IMG/VR virus record: IMGVR_UViG_3300023231_000004 | Span: 1-64,000 of that record | Strand: one strand, 5' to 3' | Length of the DNA: 64,000 nucleotides | DNA from: a virus | Shown here: piece by piece, positions 26,658 through 35,492 of the stretch | Position numbering within the stretch: position 1 is the first letter of the stretch | Layout: every line of letters begins with the position of its first letter | Program-made: the position numbers and the translations under genes | Notes under the pieces: generated by a model | Seen by the model: only the letters and a program-made list of their open reading frames with translations | What the model was told of the DNA's origin: nothing | Databases searched by the model: none

Positions 26658-28793
26658 TTAGCTGAGCCAAAATGATTCAACATAGTGACCAATAACACTC
26701 CTACGGAATGCTTCTACGGGCATAGTGTCTATTGAAATGTCGTGCTCCTGAAAGGCCTCTGCTAGATCCTGAGGAACTCGTTTACCCCCAGAAATAACGG
26801 CATAAACCTCTTTCTTTCCTACTGGCTCCATAGGCTCCAGATTTGTGAATACTTCAACCTTTAGGTTCTCAAGTTGCTTAACTTGAGCCTTGGTTAATTG
26901 TCGTACTGTTTTCTTTTCGTTTGCACCCAAGAATGCTTTAGTCAAAACTTCGGAACTATTGTCCCAAGCCTCTTCTGACCAACGGATTAGCTCTGCCACA
27001 CCCGGCTTAGACTTAGGCTTAGCCTGTCTTTGTTTTCTAGGGGCACTATCCTTAGAATTCTTAGGTCTGCCGTTTGGCTTTCCATTGCCCTTGGGTGTTA
27101 GTTTCTTAGCACCACCGGGCTTTTTGCTTCCACCAGGACCAGCCGCAGGAGCAGGAGGTTTGGGCTCATTCTCATACTGAAACTTGAGCTTCTCCTTTTC
27201 TTCCTTGGTTGTTTTCTTCATGGTGTCATCGTCGAATTCCTTCTGTTTACCCATCTTTTCAAGCTCTTGAACATGTCGAGCATTGTGGAATGGACCGGCC
27301 TTATCAGGCATACCATCGCCCTCTCTTGCTGCAATTTCCCTCTTTAGACGTACTCTTTCAACAGTAGGAGTCTCTTTGAATCTCTCCAGTAGAGTCTCAT
27401 CACTGATGATATTACGGTCAGCTAGTTGAATAAGAAGATTCTTCTCAGCAGCCTCGTCAGAAAGGCTCATTTGGTCAAATACAACCTCTGGAGCGTATCT
27501 AAAGCCCATCGCCTTACGAACTTTCTCTACTTGTGCTTGCCAGAACTTGATTAACAAGTCTCGCCCATATTGTAGTCGTTCTACTAGCGTTTTAAGAGAA
27601 ATAAAGTTGTTAGTAAAGCCGCCACCATTGCCAGACATACCAGTAAGAGTAGGGGGCACTCCTAGTCCAGCATAGATAGAGTTCCATACTGAATTGTACT
27701 TCTCTGAGCCCAAGAACTTGTGGACTTCTGTATTAGATTCGGTAAACTTTAACTCTGGACCCCACACAAGCTCCATAGTGCCTCCGCCCTGGTTATTTGC
27801 CAGGATGTTACGCAGTCTATCAATACCCTCCTTAGTAGGAAGAATTTTGTGCTCAAAGTCTCCAAGTGTCCACAGTCTAATGTTAGAAATAGCACCATCA
27901 AGGGCCGACATGTCTGCCAGTTTCATCTTCTCTAGCATACCAACATCATCAATGATAGCGTGGATCATTGGGTCAGCCCATTGTTCCCAGTCGTCTTTCT
28001 TGTAGTGGAATACGCTTAGCCTGCCATTTTCTAATCTGACTTGGCCCTTGTTCTTATTGATCTGCTCTCGCATACCTTTGGGCAGCTTGTCGAATACAGA
28101 CTTGGGCATGTTGGCCGTTCTCTGGCTCTGAGAGTCAAAGGTTCCGAAGTGCCCACCAATCTTAGCCTTGCCACTAACGTTCAGATATAGATCGCCGTCA
28201 GCCTTGACATCCAAACTTAGAGGGTTAAAAAACGTATAAGCAAAAGGAATTCTGTCTTCTTTTGTTGGGTTCTTGACCTTGATGTCCCCAGCTAGGGCCT
28301 TCATGTACTTCCTAAGCCCCTCGTCTACGTCTGCATAAGATTCGTAAACTACGACTTGGCCCGATCTGTAGAGGTTATTAAGAAAACGTTCTGATCTCTC
28401 TTTTCCATTTACTTGCTTGAACCATTGCTGGAAGAAACTTTCGGCACTTTTGTCTCGGTGTACCAAAGAGACACCCTGACAAGCGAAATCGCCCATCAAA
28501 TCAATTACATTCCGAATCAATCCGACGTTCTTGTATGCGTTCACACAATCTCTAATCATGCGTCTCTTATCTTGAGAGACAGCCGAGTCTGGGCGAAAGG
28601 CTTCGTAATCCGACCTTCCGTAAGATGGCTTCGTGCTTATATTCTGTTGTTGTGGAGGAGCGTAACTCCTGTGTGACGCAGCACTTGAGCCTTTGTAGAC
28701 TCCAGTGTAGGAACCATTGTTCTCTTCGTGAATAGCCATAGCCTTCGCAGTGGAGCCATAGTTTTCACTCCAAGTAGTTTCGTTTTCTGTCAT
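26658..28793 (-). CDS. Portal protein
   Basis: 711 residues. The portal is the twelve-subunit ring for DNA passage. Position between TerL and protease-scaffold is standard, and the sequence has portal-like stretches: a helical clip/stem (DKRRMIRDCVNAYKNVGL), ERFLNNLYRSGQVVVY, and the GLGVPPTLTGMSGNGGGFTN loop with following helix. The C-terminal 200 residues are basic, Pro/Lys/Gly-rich (residues 530-600) and then a small alpha/beta domain. Residues about 301-365 are the segment that recurs at the start of the GDP-mannose dehydratase-like gene (33004-34362). Confidence 0.85.
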   Translation of the reverse strand: MTENETTWSENYGSTAKAMAIHEENNGSYTGVYKGSSAASHRSYAPPQQQNISTKPSYGRSDYEAFRPDSAVSQDKRRMIRDCVNAYKNVGLIRNVIDLMGDFACQGVSLVHRDKSAESFFQQWFKQVNGKERSERFLNNLYRSGQVVVYESYADVDEGLRKYMKALAGDIKVKNPTKEDRIPFAYTFFNPLSLDVKADGDLYLNVSGKAKIGGHFGTFDSQSQRTANMPKSVFDKLPKGMREQINKNKGQVRLENGRLSVFHYKKDDWEQWADPMIHAIIDDVGMLEKMKLADMSALDGAISNIRLWTLGDFEHKILPTKEGIDRLRNILANNQGGGTMELVWGPELKFTESNTEVHKFLGSEKYNSVWNSIYAGLGVPPTLTGMSGNGGGFTNNFISLKTLVERLQYGRDLLIKFWQAQVEKVRKAMGFRYAPEVVFDQMSLSDEAAEKNLLIQLADRNIISDETLLERFKETPTVERVRLKREIAAREGDGMPDKAGPFHNARHVQELEKMGKQKEFDDDTMKKTTKEEKEKLKFQYENEPKPPAPAAGPGGSKKPGGAKKLTPKGNGKPNGRPKNSKDSAPRKQRQAKPKSKPGVAELIRWSEEAWDNSSEVLTKAFLGANEKKTVRQLTKAQVKQLENLKVEVFTNLEPMEPVGKKEVYAVISGGKRVPQDLAEAFQEHDISIDTMPVEAFRRSVIGHYVESFWLS

Positions 28794-28837
28794 GTTGCCA
28801 CCAATTCTGCGTGTTTAAGTATTCGGATTACAGTTAG

Positions 28838-28846
28838 ATTATACAC
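28838..28846 (-). promoter_or_regulatory. Late-type promoter motif GTGTATAAT for portal
   Basis: Minus-strand GTGTATAAT 45 bases upstream of the portal start, back to back with the rightward promoter at 28861-28889. Confidence 0.65.
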
Positions 28847-28860
28847 ATTTAAGAAAAAAG

Positions 28861-28889
28861 TTGTCTTTCTACGTGTTTTCAGCTATAAT
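28861..28889 (+). promoter_or_regulatory. Rightward sigma70-type promoter for the lone plus-strand gene
   Basis: TTGTCT (28861-28866), 17-base spacer, TATAAT (28884-28889). It precedes the gene at 28940 and is divergent from the portal promoter. Confidence 0.6.
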
Positions 28890-28939
28890 AGAGTATGAGG
28901 GAACTTCCTCAGAACACAAACAATCAGATAGGAGTCACA

Positions 28940-29293
28940 ATGGCTAAGAAGAAGACCGCAATCAGAAAAGCAGCAGATCCACAAGAAAAAAACCTTAGTG
29001 TAGTTAGCGTAGAAGACGCGAAGAAGAAGGTCGGCGACATTGTCGTAGTTGGCAATGGCGACACTATGCAGCTACTTTGCAAAGCAAGTAGCGAAGAGCA
29101 GGGCTGGATGAAATCCGCCAAGGCTATGGAAATTAAGAGTGTTGGATGTCTCGTGCAATTTACCACTCAACAAAGAAACATCGACGGAACATACTCTGTT
29201 GCAGAGACTTCCTCGTTTCTCCCAGGTACTAAACTCAGACCAGACGTAAACGGCGGAATGAAAGTGGTGCCTCAAAACTACAATGGCGACTAA
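28940..29293 (+). CDS. Hypothetical protein, rightward gene within late block
   Basis: 117 residues from the ATG at 28940, chosen for its AGGAG ribosome site; an upstream ATG at 28895 lacks one. Basic Lys-rich start (AKKKTAIRKAADPQEK), then a small beta domain (VGDIVVVGNGDTMQLLCKASS) possibly SH3-like, with a Gln/Thr-rich middle. It is the only gene on this strand in the leftward block, has an early-type promoter, and its end overlaps the TerL end tail-to-tail by four bases. Function unknown. Confidence 0.7.
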   Translation: MAKKKTAIRKAADPQEKNLSVVSVEDAKKKVGDIVVVGNGDTMQLLCKASSEEQGWMKSAKAMEIKSVGCLVQFTTQQRNIDGTYSVAETSSFLPGTKLRPDVNGGMKVVPQNYNGD

Positions 29294-31338
29294 CCGTAAA
29301 CGTCTTTCATGCCCTGGGTGTACCAATTAGGCCCACTCATAAGCTGCCCCTTCTTCTCTTTCTTGGAGTAAGCTCTGGTATTAGCAAATCCTCCATAGGA
29401 GGCGTAGACCAATGGGGCTGGTGCCCTATCTAGCGTTCTACAAGCCATATTGGCCATTAGGAGGGCGGAATACCTGTCCTTCCTAATTCTGCTCTTCTTG
29501 CCAACGCCGATGATGACTTCCGGCGTGTCCCACTTATCTCTACCACTAGGCGTAGCGGTTATCTCAATAATGGACAGTTCATCTTTCAAGTCTTCAATGT
29601 CTAAGACTACGTCTTCCATGGTATCATAGGTTCTACCTGTAAGTTCGTCGTCTGTTAAGGACAATGCTAGGCTCGCACCATCATACTTAGGGAAGATAAG
29701 CATCTTGTCTTCAAAGTCTTTCTTTAGGCCGTGATTAGCTTCTGCATACCAGTCGTACTTGGCAAACTGGCACATCTCAAGGATATGTAGCCCCTGCTCG
29801 TCGTCAGTGTCCTTCTCGTCGTCTTCGTCGATAGTAGGCCAGATGGGCTGCTCACCCGGTTCAAGCTTGTCCTCGTCGTGCAGAGCCTCCATAATGGCGA
29901 TACCACCACCTTGGGCGTCCAAGGCGATGTGCTCGGTGTTAAATCGCTTCATCAAGTCCCTGATCTTTCTAGCACAGAATGCGTAATAATCGGTTTCTGT
30001 AGACCAGCCAGACTTCTTAAACTCTTTGTGTTGAGACCTATTTGTTGTCCAGCAATGCACAATCTTCCTATGGCTAAGGTTCCTTTCTAAGATTACAATG
30101 CTAAAGTTGTCATTCTCAGACGCAGGGTCAACGCCCATAACATAACGCTTTTTAGGGTCGCCCATAAGCATAGGCTCAAAAGAAATCTCTTTGCCTTCAT
30201 TTGCATGGTCCTTGATTACGTTTTCTGGAGAGGGTACGCAGGACTCGATAAGGCTTCTCTTGAAGAACCCCTGTGAGTCTCTAGTAAACACGGCTCCAAA
30301 TTCCATAGAGTAAATACCCTTGTGGACAGTGGCCTTAGATCTAGCAACTTGGTCAGCATCCATGAAGCCCTTAGGCAAAAGCTCGTAGGGCACTCTAATA
30401 ATAGAATATTGAGTCCAATCAAAAGTCTCTGGCACTTCTTCTCCATTAAAAATGTCGCTTAGTCTATTGGGGTGTCCTTTTGACTTGATTGTTTGTCTCC
30501 ATTTCTTCCAGTATTCAGCGAAATGATTAAATTCGTAATACGCCGTTCCAGACAGAATGATTTGGTTAGCAACAGCCTGCTTGCCTTCGATAATCTGTTC
30601 TTCTTCAAGTTCGATACCAAGATCTTTAGCCATAACCTCAGCAGCCAGCCGTCTAACGTTCTCAATAGGACTAGAGCTAACAGCCGCAAAGCCAGCAACA
30701 ACGTTTTCAAAAATGTCCCTAGGAATTGAAGCAAATTCGTCAGCAATAATATCATTAGCTCTTTGGCCTCTAATCTTTTGGCCATCTCCAAGGGGTAAAC
30801 AGGTGATAACGCTATCGTTAATCTTCATGACGCAACGGTCAACTTCTCTCTTAGGCCCTGAGCCCTCACTACATAGATCTCTAAGGAGCGGCGAATTACG
30901 CCAGATCGTCTCCATGTATTCAAACAGAACCTTGGACTGACGGAAAGCCGAACCTACAATCACGATCTTACGACCATTTAGCAGTAGTGCTCGGATAATG
31001 GCATATAAAGAAAGACCAAAAGACTTACCAAAACCACGACTAGCGATAAGCATGGGAAATTTACGTTTCCATAGTTCGTCAAGGAACAAACACTGCATGG
31101 GCAGCAGTTGGATATTCAGTAGCTCCTTACACATGAACGAGAAATACTCAGGGCGAGACATTAGATAGCTCAGCCTAAGGTGAAAGTCGTCCCTGTTTGG
31201 CTTAATAAAGTCAGTAGGATTAAAGAGTTCGTCGTCGTTGATCTCACCTAGCCCTAGCCAAGCTTCTTCAATCTTCTTTAGCTGAATCTCTAGTTGTTTC
31301 TCTTCGCTTTTCTTTAGTTGTTTTTTCTTTTTAGCCAT
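29290..31338 (-). CDS. Terminase large subunit
   Basis: 682 residues. DNA-packaging motor: an N-terminal ATPase with a Walker A-like motif ASRGFGKS (residues 99-106), Walker B-like DIIADEF near residue 200, and a C-terminal RNase H-like nuclease with VMGVDPASENDNFS and ALDAQGGGIAIME. These are the hallmarks of TerL. The N-terminus is highly basic. It lies upstream of portal, with the ClpP-like gene overlapping its start by eight bases. The identity is firm. Confidence 0.93.
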   Translation of the reverse strand: MAKKKKQLKKSEEKQLEIQLKKIEEAWLGLGEINDDELFNPTDFIKPNRDDFHLRLSYLMSRPEYFSFMCKELLNIQLLPMQCLFLDELWKRKFPMLIASRGFGKSFGLSLYAIIRALLLNGRKIVIVGSAFRQSKVLFEYMETIWRNSPLLRDLCSEGSGPKREVDRCVMKINDSVITCLPLGDGQKIRGQRANDIIADEFASIPRDIFENVVAGFAAVSSSPIENVRRLAAEVMAKDLGIELEEEQIIEGKQAVANQIILSGTAYYEFNHFAEYWKKWRQTIKSKGHPNRLSDIFNGEEVPETFDWTQYSIIRVPYELLPKGFMDADQVARSKATVHKGIYSMEFGAVFTRDSQGFFKRSLIESCVPSPENVIKDHANEGKEISFEPMLMGDPKKRYVMGVDPASENDNFSIVILERNLSHRKIVHCWTTNRSQHKEFKKSGWSTETDYYAFCARKIRDLMKRFNTEHIALDAQGGGIAIMEALHDEDKLEPGEQPIWPTIDEDDEKDTDDEQGLHILEMCQFAKYDWYAEANHGLKKDFEDKMLIFPKYDGASLALSLTDDELTGRTYDTMEDVVLDIEDLKDELSIIEITATPSGRDKWDTPEVIIGVGKKSRIRKDRYSALLMANMACRTLDRAPAPLVYASYGGFANTRAYSKKEKKGQLMSGPNWYTQGMKDVYG

Positions 31339-31984
31339 TGTATTTTAGTGCTGCGATATTAGGGTAGTCTGTTGATCCTAGGATTTCGTCTGCTAGTCCA
31401 TAATGAACAGCTTCCTCTGCGTTAAGATACCAGTCGCCCTCTTCCATTTTCTTTTGAACATATGTTGTTGCATACTTATGGGCGATGTCTGACTCGTATC
31501 TTTCTGTGAAATAGGGGCCGTACTGCATCTTGGATGCGTAGATCTCTATCATGTTCTTTGTTAGCTTGCCAGCGAAGCGAAAATATCTCTTATTGTTGGC
31601 GTGATTGCCTACAAAGGCCTCTGAGCCGTAGTGGCACATCATATAAGAGTTGGGCATCATAACCCTGAAATCTGCTGCTTGAGGGATAATACTACTCATA
31701 GAGCAGGCATATCCGTAGATCAAAACGGTAATGTAGGATTCTGCGAAAGTCATCGCGTCGTACATCGCCATCCCCTCTTCCCACTCTCCACCACCACCAG
31801 CATTTAGATGAATAAGGATAGGTCCAGGCTTGTGCTCTAGGGCACGCAGGTTTTTGATGAACATGGAACCAATCTTGTTCTCAATGTCGTCGTCTTCACT
31901 GTTGTTGTAATACCTGTGAACGAAAATCTCCCTATTCTTGTGGTCCACGGAAAAATTATTAAGATCTTCTAGCAGTTCTCTCAT
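31331..31984 (-). CDS. ClpP-like serine protease
   Basis: 217 residues. ClpP/crotonase fold: Gly-rich strand (HLNAGGGGEWEEGMAMYDA), catalytic Ser95 in YACSMSS, and His118 in MMCHYGS. Size fits ClpP (about 200). In some phages ClpP-like enzymes mature the prohead; here a separate S-x-E protease is fused to the scaffold, so this copy may act on host proteins or on another step. It overlaps TerL and the ERCC4 gene by a few bases, part of the packaging operon. The GGGG loop is unusual. Confidence 0.82.
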   Translation of the reverse strand: MRELLEDLNNFSVDHKNREIFVHRYYNNSEDDDIENKIGSMFIKNLRALEHKPGPILIHLNAGGGGEWEEGMAMYDAMTFAESYITVLIYGYACSMSSIIPQAADFRVMMPNSYMMCHYGSEAFVGNHANNKRYFRFAGKLTKNMIEIYASKMQYGPYFTERYESDIAHKYATTYVQKKMEEGDWYLNAEEAVHYGLADEILGSTDYPNIAALKYNG

Positions 31985-32484
31985 TATTTTACTTTTCCTA
32001 CTGTGTACTTCTCATGCAGCCTCTTGAATAGGCCGCTCAAGAACATAAAGGTGTTGTGCTTGTTTTCACAGAACACAACGTGAATGTCATTGTAGATCGC
32101 AAGCTCATTGAGAGACTTCATAAGATACTTTCCAGTGATCTTTAGGGTCTTCTTTTTAGCTTCTGGAATCCTGGTGCCCTCTGGGAATTTGAGAACATCG
32201 TCTAGCGTAAATTCGCATACTAGGAACTTATGTTCAAATGGCTCCATTCTCTTGACTTCTGCCATGAAGGCGTGTTTCTTCTGTCCCAGGTTAATGGCGA
32301 TCTCTTCAACAGACGCTTTTCTCTCAATGCAGATCTTGTCTTCAAGGCCTTTAATGGTATAGTCGCCTGTGTCTAGCTTCTCAGTAATCATTCCCTCGCA
32401 CTGGTCGTAGGGGCCGAAGAACAAACCTTGTTGCTCTCTAGTGTCTTGAATGATTGTGTATTTTGGCTTACTTGCTTTTGCCAT
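31984..32484 (-). CDS. ERCC4-type nuclease domain protein
   Basis: 166 residues from the ATG at 32484 (an upstream ATG at 32499 overlaps the HNH gene more). ERCC4/XPF-like nuclease core: DTREQ near residue 15, GDYTIK, then CIERKASVEE, matching the D...GDY...ERKxxx(D/E) pattern. Such enzymes cut branched DNA; in phages they are thought to resolve intermediates before packaging. It overlaps the HNH gene and is directly upstream of the protease and TerL. Confidence 0.82.
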   Translation of the reverse strand: MAKASKPKYTIIQDTREQQGLFFGPYDQCEGMITEKLDTGDYTIKGLEDKICIERKASVEEIAINLGQKKHAFMAEVKRMEPFEHKFLVCEFTLDDVLKFPEGTRIPEAKKKTLKITGKYLMKSLNELAIYNDIHVVFCENKHNTFMFLSGLFKRLHEKYTVGKVK

Positions 32485-32746
32485 TGTTCTTTCTCGCAAT
32501 TGCTAGGAAGACTCGCTGATAATGAGTCTCTTTTTTTGAAATTGAGTCATGACACTTCCTACAGAGAGTAAGGCCATTTCCAGGGTCGAACCTCATGGAT
32601 GAGGCTCTTGCCCACGTTATGATATGGTGAGCCTTCAAAGCTTTCTTCGAGTTACAGCCGGGCATTTGGCATACCCAGCCGTCTCTCTTCTTGACTGCCA
32701 TCCTCCAAGCTTTGTATTGAGGATCGTCCCAGTCTCTTTTAGTCAT
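32468..32746 (-). CDS. HNH endonuclease
   Basis: 92 residues with a typical HNH/zinc arrangement: CQMPGC, AHHIITWA, DPGNGLTLCRKCHD. HNH proteins next to terminase often assist DNA cutting during packaging. It overlaps its neighbours on both sides by a few bases, so it is part of the same operon. Its small size argues against an intron-homing enzyme. Confidence 0.9.
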   Translation of the reverse strand: MTKRDWDDPQYKAWRMAVKKRDGWVCQMPGCNSKKALKAHHIITWARASSMRFDPGNGLTLCRKCHDSISKKETHYQRVFLAIARKNNGKSK

Positions 32747-33035
32747 TTGCTTCCTCTAGGTTTTTGATGGAAACTATGTTCTTTACGTCTCGAACAATGG
32801 GCTCTGGAACATCTTGGTCTCTAAGTAGTGAAATTAGATTTTTCATAGACAAGAAACAGGCGTCGTCAGGGCTCTTGGCGGTCATACTAAACTGACACAC
32901 GTAAATTTTCTTCTTGTCTTTGTCGATTGAAGGAATGGGCTTGTATTCACGAAGCATGTAGGGCTTTAGTGCCTGATACACTTTCGTGAAATTCATGGTC
33001 ACGTTATACTTTTTCATTTGCTTGGTCGATGTCAT
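32739..33035 (-). CDS. Hypothetical protein
   Basis: 98 residues if started at 33035, or 92 from the ATG at 33017 (KKYNVTMNFTKV), which avoids some overlap with the dehydratase end. Lys-rich, with the strand pattern IYVCQFSMTAKSPDDA that recalls small nucleic-acid-binding folds. Unknown family; overlaps HNH by eight bases. Confidence 0.6.
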   Translation of the reverse strand: MTSTKQMKKYNVTMNFTKVYQALKPYMLREYKPIPSIDKDKKKIYVCQFSMTAKSPDDACFLSMKNLISLLRDQDVPEPIVRDVKNIVSIKNLEEAND

Positions 33036-34362
33036 AATTAACCATCTCCTTGACTAAGTCGTCGAAGCTGTATTCTCTTTTCCAGTTTAGTTTTTCCCTT
33101 GCCTTTGAACATTTACCTAATAGAAAGTCAACTTCGGCGGGTCTATAAAATACTGGGTCAATAACCACGTAGTTATTCCAGTCTGGGATATTGATGCAGC
33201 CAAAGGCCACATCTAGGAAGTCCCCAACGGACCTCGTCTCTTCTGTACAGATGACATAGTCATCAGGGTCGTCTTGTTGTAGCATCAGGTGCATGGCCTT
33301 AACATAGTCCTTGGCGTGGCCCCAATCTCTCTTTGCTTCTAAGTTGCCCAACCTCAGCTTGGAGATTCGTCTGCAATTAGGTGCAATAATATGGTCTTCT
33401 GAGAATGTAAGTTCAACTTCGTCTGCGTCTTGGCCTTCAAACCATCTATCAAACTCTGCAACCCACTTCGTAATCTTCTTTGTAACGAAGTTCTCGCCCC
33501 TTCTAGGGCCTTCGTGGTTGAATAGGATGCCAGCACTCGCATGAATGCCGTAGGCCTCTCTATAGAGCCTCACAGACATGTGGGCGGCACACTTGGCGAT
33601 AGCGTAAGGGCTTTGTGGCAAGTGCTTCGTGTTTTCGTCTTGGTACTTCTTAGACATCCTGGTTCCGCCGTAAGGTTGTCCATTGGAGTGTATTCCGTCG
33701 TATGCTTCTGTTTCGTAGTCATAATTCGCCCCAAACATCTCACTACTAGACGCTTGATAGAACTTGACGTGTGTCATCTTCAAGTCAACAAGGCACTGGA
33801 GGATGTTCATACAGCCTTTGCCAGTAATATCCCATGTGACTCCTGGTTGCTTAAACGATTCCCCCACATGGGACTGGGCGGCAAGGTTATAGACTTCATC
33901 TACATTTCCGATATTGCTAAAAATGCGAACCAAGCTGGCATAGTCCGTCAAGTCTCCGCTCACCATCGAGAAGTTGGCCTCATCCGAGAGGTGTTTCACT
34001 CGCCACTCGTTATTAGTCGAGCTTCGCCTTTTTACTCCGACTACTTTGTACCCCTTCTCTAGTAGTAGATCCGCAAGATGTGAACCGTCCATACCAGTAA
34101 CGCCGAAAATCAAAGCTACCTTCTTTCTCGATTCTAACAGAGGGAAGTGCTCTTCTAAAACACTGATAGAGTCTAAAGATTCGTAGGATGAATTGTCTGT
34201 AGTGGTCAGTGTTACTTCTGGACCCCAAACAATGTTCTCTACATCCTTGTCTGACTTCTCTACTCTATCAAGTTCTTTCTTGAAGGCTTGAACTCCCTCT
34301 TTGGTTGGCAGAATCTTGTGTTCCAGGTTGCCTAGTGTCCAAAGTCTAATTTTGTTTGTCAT
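33004..34362 (-). CDS. gmd: GDP-mannose 4,6-dehydratase with portal-like N-terminal extension
   Basis: 452 residues. From about residue 80 it is a short-chain dehydrogenase: GVTGMDGSHLA (NADP-binding Gly motif), SSSEMFG and the YAIAK catalytic Tyr/Lys, with a good match to GDP-mannose 4,6-dehydratase, which makes GDP-4-keto-6-deoxymannose. The first 60 residues (IRLWTLG, EHKILPTKEG, then WGPE) repeat portal residues 301-365 at 17 of 20 identical positions in the best stretch. So the gene looks like a dehydratase inserted behind a piece of a portal copy. No other step of this pathway is in the window. It lies in the packaging operon. Confidence 0.88.
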   Translation of the reverse strand: MTNKIRLWTLGNLEHKILPTKEGVQAFKKELDRVEKSDKDVENIVWGPEVTLTTTDNSSYESLDSISVLEEHFPLLESRKKVALIFGVTGMDGSHLADLLLEKGYKVVGVKRRSSTNNEWRVKHLSDEANFSMVSGDLTDYASLVRIFSNIGNVDEVYNLAAQSHVGESFKQPGVTWDITGKGCMNILQCLVDLKMTHVKFYQASSSEMFGANYDYETEAYDGIHSNGQPYGGTRMSKKYQDENTKHLPQSPYAIAKCAAHMSVRLYREAYGIHASAGILFNHEGPRRGENFVTKKITKWVAEFDRWFEGQDADEVELTFSEDHIIAPNCRRISKLRLGNLEAKRDWGHAKDYVKAMHLMLQQDDPDDYVICTEETRSVGDFLDVAFGCINIPDWNNYVVIDPVFYRPAEVDFLLGKCSKAREKLNWKREYSFDDLVKEMVNYDIDQANEKV

Positions 34363-34479
34363 AAATTCCTCTAATCTTGTCCAAAATGTTGTTCTTGTCG
34401 TGTTTCAGGTTGGCACAAAGCGTACCAGCGATTATTTGAGGCTCTGTTGTATAAACGTCGCCTTTTACTCCGTAGTAAA

Positions 34480-34677
34480 TTAAGTAGCTTGCTTGACAGT
34501 TGCTTGGCCATTGACCACTCTAACTACACAGAAGTCAAAATACTCCTTAGTAGTGCCCGCCACACACTTGCCCACAACTTCTTCGCCGCCTAGCTCAATT
34601 GTGATGTCATATCTAAACCATTTGCCAGTATATGTGCCGTCTGGAACCTCAACTGGGAATGTTACTAGGTCTCCCAT
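34480..34677 (-). CDS. Small hypothetical protein
   Basis: 65 residues, acidic/beta-like. It starts next to the end of the terminase small-subunit candidate (TAATG-type overlap). An open frame of about 46 codons in the -1 frame continues beyond its stop (to 34346), so the protein may once have been longer. Function unknown. Confidence 0.5.
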   Translation of the reverse strand: MGDLVTFPVEVPDGTYTGKWFRYDITIELGGEEVVGKCVAGTTKEYFDFCVVRVVNGQATVKQAT

Positions 34678-35492
34678 TATTTATCTCCTTCGTTCTTGTC
34701 TTCAAAGACTGATTCATGGTTTAAAAATGGCTGATCTACCATACCATCCTCATATTTGTGGTATTTGGAAAGTCTAGCCTTCTCTCCCTCCATGGCTAGC
34801 CTCATTTTCTCCATTTCTACACCAAAAGCCTTCAACTTGTCAGGGTTTTGCAGTAGGTGGGCAACCCACGAGCCGAATGACTCTCTTGAGTCCTCTAATC
34901 TTTTGATTCTTTGCTCTCTAGTGCCCTTCATTTCTTTCAGCATGGAAGACTTTTTTGTTTGGAGGTCTCTGTAGTCCTTATTTAGTGCCTCTTGTGAAGC
35001 CCTGAGTGCCCCAATCTGTCTTTCCATGTTTAGAATACGCTCAAAGTCCCTAGTTTCATCACTTAGGTTGTATTCGTTCTCTACTTCTAGCTCGACTCTG
35101 TTAATCGCCCTAATGTTATCCTTATTGGACTTCAAACATCTGTTCATCAGAAGCTCAATCTTGATGACGTCTACGATCTGAATTTCCTCAGTAGGCAAAA
35201 CGTCGTTATTGAACTGGGCTACAATCCTAGACCAGTGATACCCGAACAGTTCTAGCTCTTCGTCGTCAAATTGAGCCTTCAATTCGTAATAGTAAGGCCT
35301 ATCCCTAAGCTGATACTCCGCTTGCTCGTGTGCAGTGACGCCTACATTGTATTTCTTCTTGATGTAGTCTTCAACACTGGCCGGATTCCTGTTAAGGCTG
35401 GCCCCAATCTCTTCTGGCGTCAAAACTTCTAAGTTCTCTTGGATGAACTCATCTTCTTTATTACTAATACGCCCTTTCTTTAGTCCGCTCAT
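34677..35492 (-). CDS. Possible terminase small subunit
   Basis: 271 residues. An N-terminal helix-turn-helix-like segment (LTPEEIGASLNRNPASVEDYI) is followed by a long helical, coiled-coil region and a charged C-terminus. The order DNA-binding head then oligomerisation coil resembles small terminase subunits, but TerL is four genes away. It overlaps its neighbours by one to four bases. A different DNA-binding role is possible. Confidence 0.5.
   Translation of the reverse strand: MSGLKKGRISNKEDEFIQENLEVLTPEEIGASLNRNPASVEDYIKKKYNVGVTAHEQAEYQLRDRPYYYELKAQFDDEELELFGYHWSRIVAQFNNDVLPTEEIQIVDVIKIELLMNRCLKSNKDNIRAINRVELEVENEYNLSDETRDFERILNMERQIGALRASQEALNKDYRDLQTKKSSMLKEMKGTREQRIKRLEDSRESFGSWVAHLLQNPDKLKAFGVEMEKMRLAMEGEKARLSKYHKYEDGMVDQPFLNHESVFEDKNEGDK

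Follow-up and report, generated by a model that had tools for sequence, protein, structure and literature searches.

Phages are known to fuse genes and to capture domains. Among the described systems closest to the locus analysed here are the clip domains of portal proteins and the GDP-mannose 4,6-dehydratases. In the T4 portal protein gp20, the clip (residues 279–358) has three strands and one helix, with sheets that form between subunits, and it is the attachment site of the packaging ATPase and the neck (PMC4493910). In Bacillus subtilis, the clip of the SP-beta portal is the platform on which the NADase SpbK docks, clusters, and is activated, and EcAvs4 binds the stem and the clip of the portal (PMC12847820; PMC11984713). 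Because the motor and the neck dock at the clip, as do at least two defence systems, a free copy of it would be a ready-made probe.

We analysed a stretch of 64,000 nucleotides of viral DNA (positions 1 to 64,000 of the IMG/VR record IMGVR_UViG_3300023231_000004; hereafter the window) in which the probable clip of the portal has a paralogue at the N-terminus of a dehydratase. The parent segment lies between two predicted stem helices, as do the clips of T4 gp20 and SP-beta YonE, and the module keeps the core motifs of the portal clips of its own phage family. Unlike known portal clips, it is free-standing or fused to an enzyme and has no stem, wing, or crown. The enzyme has the full catalytic domain and the catalytic residues of GDP-mannose 4,6-dehydratases (PF16363, TIGR01472), with about 40–45% identity to cyanophage homologues and 52–63% to homologues within its phage family, but its N-terminal extension of about 78 residues is unrelated to these proteins. 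A limited literature search found no earlier report of clip paralogues or of portal–dehydratase fusions; within that search, no description came up of a portal clip that persists as a module of its own under selection.

The dehydratase begins with an old copy of a portal segment

The first-pass annotation had placed a dehydratase-like gene at 33004–34362, and had proposed that its first 60 residues are foreign to its enzyme family and repeat portal residues 301–365. This gene and the portal gene (26658–28793) are confirmed as open reading frames on the minus strand (452 and 711 residues, respectively), and so is the repeat. Smith–Waterman alignment pairs enzyme residues 3–65 with portal residues 303–363 (core 5–65 against 305–363), and in the best stretch (IRLWTLGNLEHKILPTKEGV in the enzyme, IRLWTLGDFEHKILPTKEGI in the portal) 17 of 20 residues are identical from IRLWTLG on. 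The BLOSUM62 local score is 129, far above chance (1,000 shuffles gave a mean of 33, a standard deviation of 4.9, and a maximum of 53), and tblastn gives an E-value of about 5e-10 in a small database. The fused gene divides into a clip-like module (residues 5–65; 34168–34350, minus strand), a linker (residues 66–78; 34129–34167, minus strand), and the dehydratase domain (residues 79–452; 33004–34128, minus strand). The module corresponds to the clip segment only and retains the core pattern RLWT.G..HK..P...L...GPE, including 12 residues that are invariant in all portals compared (R6, L7, W8, T9, G11, H15, K16, P19, L31, G47, P48, and E49), but it lacks the ES motif and most of the GGG loop, both invariant in portals. 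The DNA can be aligned over 59 bp only, at about 73% identity, a different synonymous codon is used at 10 of the 17 residues common to both copies, and synonymous sites are saturated. The duplication of the portal piece is therefore old, and a recent origin is ruled out.

By Pfam, the remainder of the protein belongs to the GDP-mannose dehydratase family. The Pfam matches (GDP_Man_Dehyd and Epimerase) start at residue 83–84, in agreement with the proposal that the extension lies outside the enzyme, and the fused protein scores 355 bits against PF16363, whose gathering score is 27. An alignment of 29 dehydratases shows that the nucleotide-binding loop GVTGMDG (G86–G92) and the catalytic residues of SSSE...YAIAK (S206, E207, Y252, and K256) are present. 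The enzyme domain probably makes GDP-4-keto-6-deoxymannose, although the GDP-mannose substrate is an assumption, since the fused enzyme misses the equivalog cut-off of TIGR01472 (356.7 against 415 bits), as does an unfused sibling (354.4 bits). No second gene of the NAD-epimerase family was found in the 176-kb record from which the window is taken. The fused gene has no in-frame ATG, GTG, or TTG from codon 2 to codon 83, and the next ones (TTG 84 and ATG 91) fall inside the nucleotide-binding motif. Hence, the extension must be translated, and an internal start that skips it is ruled out. A Shine–Dalgarno-like AGAGGA (34367–34372, minus strand) lies 4 bases upstream of the ATG of the extension.

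The copied segment is probably the portal clip

Searches of the 711-residue protein against Pfam, PHROG, NCBIfam, and PDB-sequence profiles gave no recognition. An AlphaFold2 model built from 30 relatives has a mean pLDDT of only 62. All 42 PDB matches of this model at E ≤ 0.001 in Foldseek are phage or gene transfer agent portal or neck entries, its matches among named viral models are mostly portals, and its gene adjoins that of the terminase large subunit (29290–31338, minus strand), which lies between the enzyme and the portal genes in the same direction. The protein is a portal, as the Foldseek matches of its model support.

In the model, a long helix (265–310) runs into the copied segment, which contains a further helix (320–331) and is followed by a helix (363–375), a loop, and a long helix (394–428). 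This order matches the succession of stem, clip, stem, and tunnel loop in portals (for T4, PMC4493910). A motif just behind the segment (residues 365–393, YNSVWNSIYAGLGVPPTLTG) is picked by profiles in lambda B and T4 gp20, in weak alignments (E-values of 0.041 and 0.23–0.54, respectively); the match to T4 gp20 starts at residue 367, and the T4 clip ends at residue 358. In a relaxed alignment IRLWTLG falls on the beginning of the T4 clip, though not significantly. The pattern also fits portals of the HK97 type. The pLDDT of the portal model is below 50 within the segment, and the isolated module folded alone reaches 43, with a helix predicted at residues 21–36 and no strands. Segment 305–363 (27705–27881, minus strand), between a first predicted stem helix (about 265–303) and a second (about 363–375), is probably the clip domain by its place in the model and in the profile comparisons; given the low local confidence, this assignment is likely and not statistically proven.

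The fusion is confined to one lineage and lies next to a variable cargo slot

We collected relatives with a degenerate pattern of the clip motif. It retrieved over 110 viral contigs, all from a single family of uncultured phages that has this portal; none was found in the INPHARED phage set. Contigs of the family (L157 and L158) were also deposited within metagenome-assembled genomes of SAR202 and Flavobacteriales, which may hint at hosts or reflect mis-binning. Many contigs of the family carry the dehydratase at the same place, and all 30 dehydratases with an intact 5' end start unfused, at or near a motif MK.AIIFG.TGQDG that corresponds to residues 79–83 of the window protein. The extension occurs only in the lineage of the window: its own record, contig L002 (100% identical over 21 kb), and contig L003 (99.2% over 14.5 kb, 116 differences, and 97% in the fused protein). 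The fusion is thus found in three assemblies, of which one has 116 differences over 14.5 kb, and this rules out an assembly chimera. With about 30 homologues unfused, the extension is a lineage-specific gain and the fusion is the derived state. The refuting case named in the first-pass annotation, the same N-terminus in a genome without such a portal, occurred in none of the IMG/VR and GTDB contigs searched.

Locus comparison shows that a slot of variable cargo (34363–34676, minus strand in the window) separates the dehydratase from a conserved upstream gene of 271 residues (34677–35492, minus strand), which marks it. Across 33 assemblies the slot is hypervariable and contains nothing, HNH endonucleases, sulfotransferases, glycosyltransferases, methyltransferases, or other genes, as named by inspection. 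In the window (34346–34677, minus strand) it holds an open reading frame of 65 residues followed by an out-of-frame tail, YLIYYGVKGDVYTTEPQIIAGTLCANLKHDKNNILDKIRGIYDKQN, which has no usual start codon, overlaps the start of the enzyme, and is present in both haplotypes; either gene breakage or a −1 frameshift would account for it. In contig L129 the slot contains a MotA/ExbB-like gene with a membrane-anchored neighbour, the former weakly matching ZorA of Zorya (E-value of 1.6e-4).

A second phage carries the copy in a separate gene

The IMG/VR record 3300009481_000010, of the same family, has a clip copy (MAKVRLWTMGNLDHKILPTKEG...) in a separate gene that directly follows the 271-residue gene. 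Counted from the ATG, its product has 204 residues; the sequence opens with MAKVRLWTMGNLDHKILPTKEGVDKLRNILAANVGHEDLNVIWGPELTLT, the C-terminus is unrelated, and, as in the window extension, there is no stem, wing, or crown. The module gene is followed by genes of 88 and 121 residues, by a sulfotransferase-like gene, and by the dehydratase, which is unfused, starts MPKAIIFGVTGQDG, and thus lies four genes past the module. Beyond it come the same genes as in the window, down to the terminase and the portal. The clip paralogue therefore existed, or moved from phage to phage, independently of the enzyme. The portal of this phage is itself split (contig L145, 3071–5175, minus strand) into frames of 630 and 82 residues by an apparent frameshift.

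Met-initiated clip copies were found only in these two lineages among 2.9 million viral contigs, and a clip HMM run across all fetched loci recovered only the two known copies; the GTDB contigs yielded two portals only. We found no relatives of the C-terminus of the 204-residue protein, which has no significant match in Pfam, PHROGs, NCBIfam, or PADLOC and no detectable similarity to the window linker (tail comparison, p = 0.82).

A candidate mimic of the portal clip

We conclude that the extension is a selected paralogue of the portal clip, an accessory cargo secondarily fused to the enzyme, and consider this account, in which it most likely works as a mimic of the clip, fairly probable as a whole. 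The data show the homology of the extension, its location, its restriction to one lineage, the need to translate it, and selection against amino-acid replacement. At some point, the part of a portal gene of this family that encodes the clip would have been duplicated into the variable slot ahead of the dehydratase, to diverge there while keeping the core motifs of the clip. In one known phage the copy is the start of a separate protein of 204 residues; in the window lineage it would have been joined in frame to the dehydratase, with loss of the enzyme's own start codon, so that every enzyme molecule carries a clip copy. Such a mimic may present the partner-binding surface of the portal, and we infer that the module binds a partner of the portal clip. 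There are two candidates, between which we express no preference: packaging or neck proteins of the phage itself, bound for tethering or modulation, and a defence protein of the host that detects the portal clip, for which the module would be a decoy. More generally, and only tentatively, phages may carry free-standing mimics of their own clip as cargo, as immunity decoys or motor competitors, one lineage having made a bifunctional fusion.

A partner in packaging or the neck is possible, if doubtful: the copy would bind the terminase or a neck protein, or enter the ring of clips, and thereby tether the enzyme or modulate packaging. The attachment of the packaging ATPase and the neck to the T4 clip (PMC4493910), the position of the fused gene near the terminase and the portal in the same direction, and the conservation of the core motifs are all in line with this. 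Yet the copy is absent from most relatives, so packaging does not need it, and the loss of the ES motif and of most of the GGG loop also speaks against such a role.

A role as decoy is possible but unlikely: whether fused or free, the copy would titrate a host sensor of the portal clip of the SpbK or Avs4 kind and thereby shield the phage, with the partner domain giving it only stability or abundance. The clip of the SP-beta portal activates SpbK and EcAvs4 contacts the stem and the clip (PMC12847820; PMC11984713), a monomeric clip could occupy the sensor without clustering it, and patchy occurrence in a hypervariable cargo slot fits an accessory gene. On the other hand, PADLOC gave no match in the module proteins, and the copy might just as well set the sensor off. 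If the module is a decoy, it would act in the conflict over portal sensing in which Nip, the known counter-defence against SpbK, takes part; Nip binds the TIR domain and, unlike the clip module, is not derived from a portal.

Constraint on the extension and origin of the two copies

An accident, in which a portal fragment lodged in the slot would now only provide the enzyme with a start codon and a ribosome-binding site, is rather improbable, on a par with the decoy. The enzyme's own start has indeed been lost, the start of the extension is preceded by the AGAGGA described above, and the slot holds other debris (the 65-residue frame and its tail). The coincidence of the copy with one domain and its presence, with identical residues lost, at the head of a separate gene in the other phage argue otherwise, as do the substitutions. 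Between the two haplotypes of the window lineage (window and L003), 13 of the 24 differences in the fused gene cluster in codons 23–46 (34225–34296, minus strand; p = 4e-11). Eight of these 13 are synonymous, where 20–26% would be expected (p = 0.001–0.007), and the five amino-acid changes are all conservative. Over codons 1–80, dN is 0.033 and dS is 0.169, values that rest on few substitutions in one recombined-looking patch; between the modules of the two phages, dN in a 20-codon core is 0.105 at saturated dS. The synonymous excess and the low dN of the core indicate that the extension behaves as a constrained protein, unlike debris. The patch, about 70 bp of divergent sequence within DNA that is otherwise about 99% identical, suggests recombination with a diverged, so far unseen module allele.

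The first-pass annotation had read the extension as a fragment of a second portal gene behind which the enzyme landed, or as a fusion by recombination. The portal-derived piece fused to the dehydratase stands, given the homology and the 30 or so unfused homologues. We abandon the raw fragment: the copy coincides with a single domain, probably the clip, it has diverged at portal-invariant sites, it shows the synonymous excess, and in another phage it heads a separate gene in the same slot.

We favour a common origin of the two clip copies, although it is not proven. Of the residues invariant in 27 aligned portal clips, an identical set of 12 is retained and an identical set of six lost in the two modules, and a few more are lost or absent in only one of them; they share the GNL and TLT residues and the same slot; and in the tree they form one clade (support of 95/89) apart from 33 portal clips. 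Two separate events, each phage duplicating the clip of its own portal into the slot, are distinctly unlikely on these grounds, even if the AU test does not reject trees that place each copy with the portal of its phage (p-AU of 0.18 and 0.10, 57 columns) and the two phages are not sisters in the terminase tree. Since the copies group and the phages do not, a common origin would require that the slot's module was transferred or that it was lost elsewhere.

The earlier suggestion that the module is a tag, by which the dehydratase would enter the particle or attach to the neck, appeals to the contacts of the clip with neck proteins in known phages, and it is very improbable, because the clip is situated outside the shell with few partners, the copy of the other phage sits on a non-enzyme, and 30 relatives use the dehydratase untagged.

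The terminase gene itself is in two or three pieces in two contigs of the family (L052, 8181–11354, and L068, 423–4796), with inserts of about 1.2 kb that resemble introns, inteins, or homing elements.
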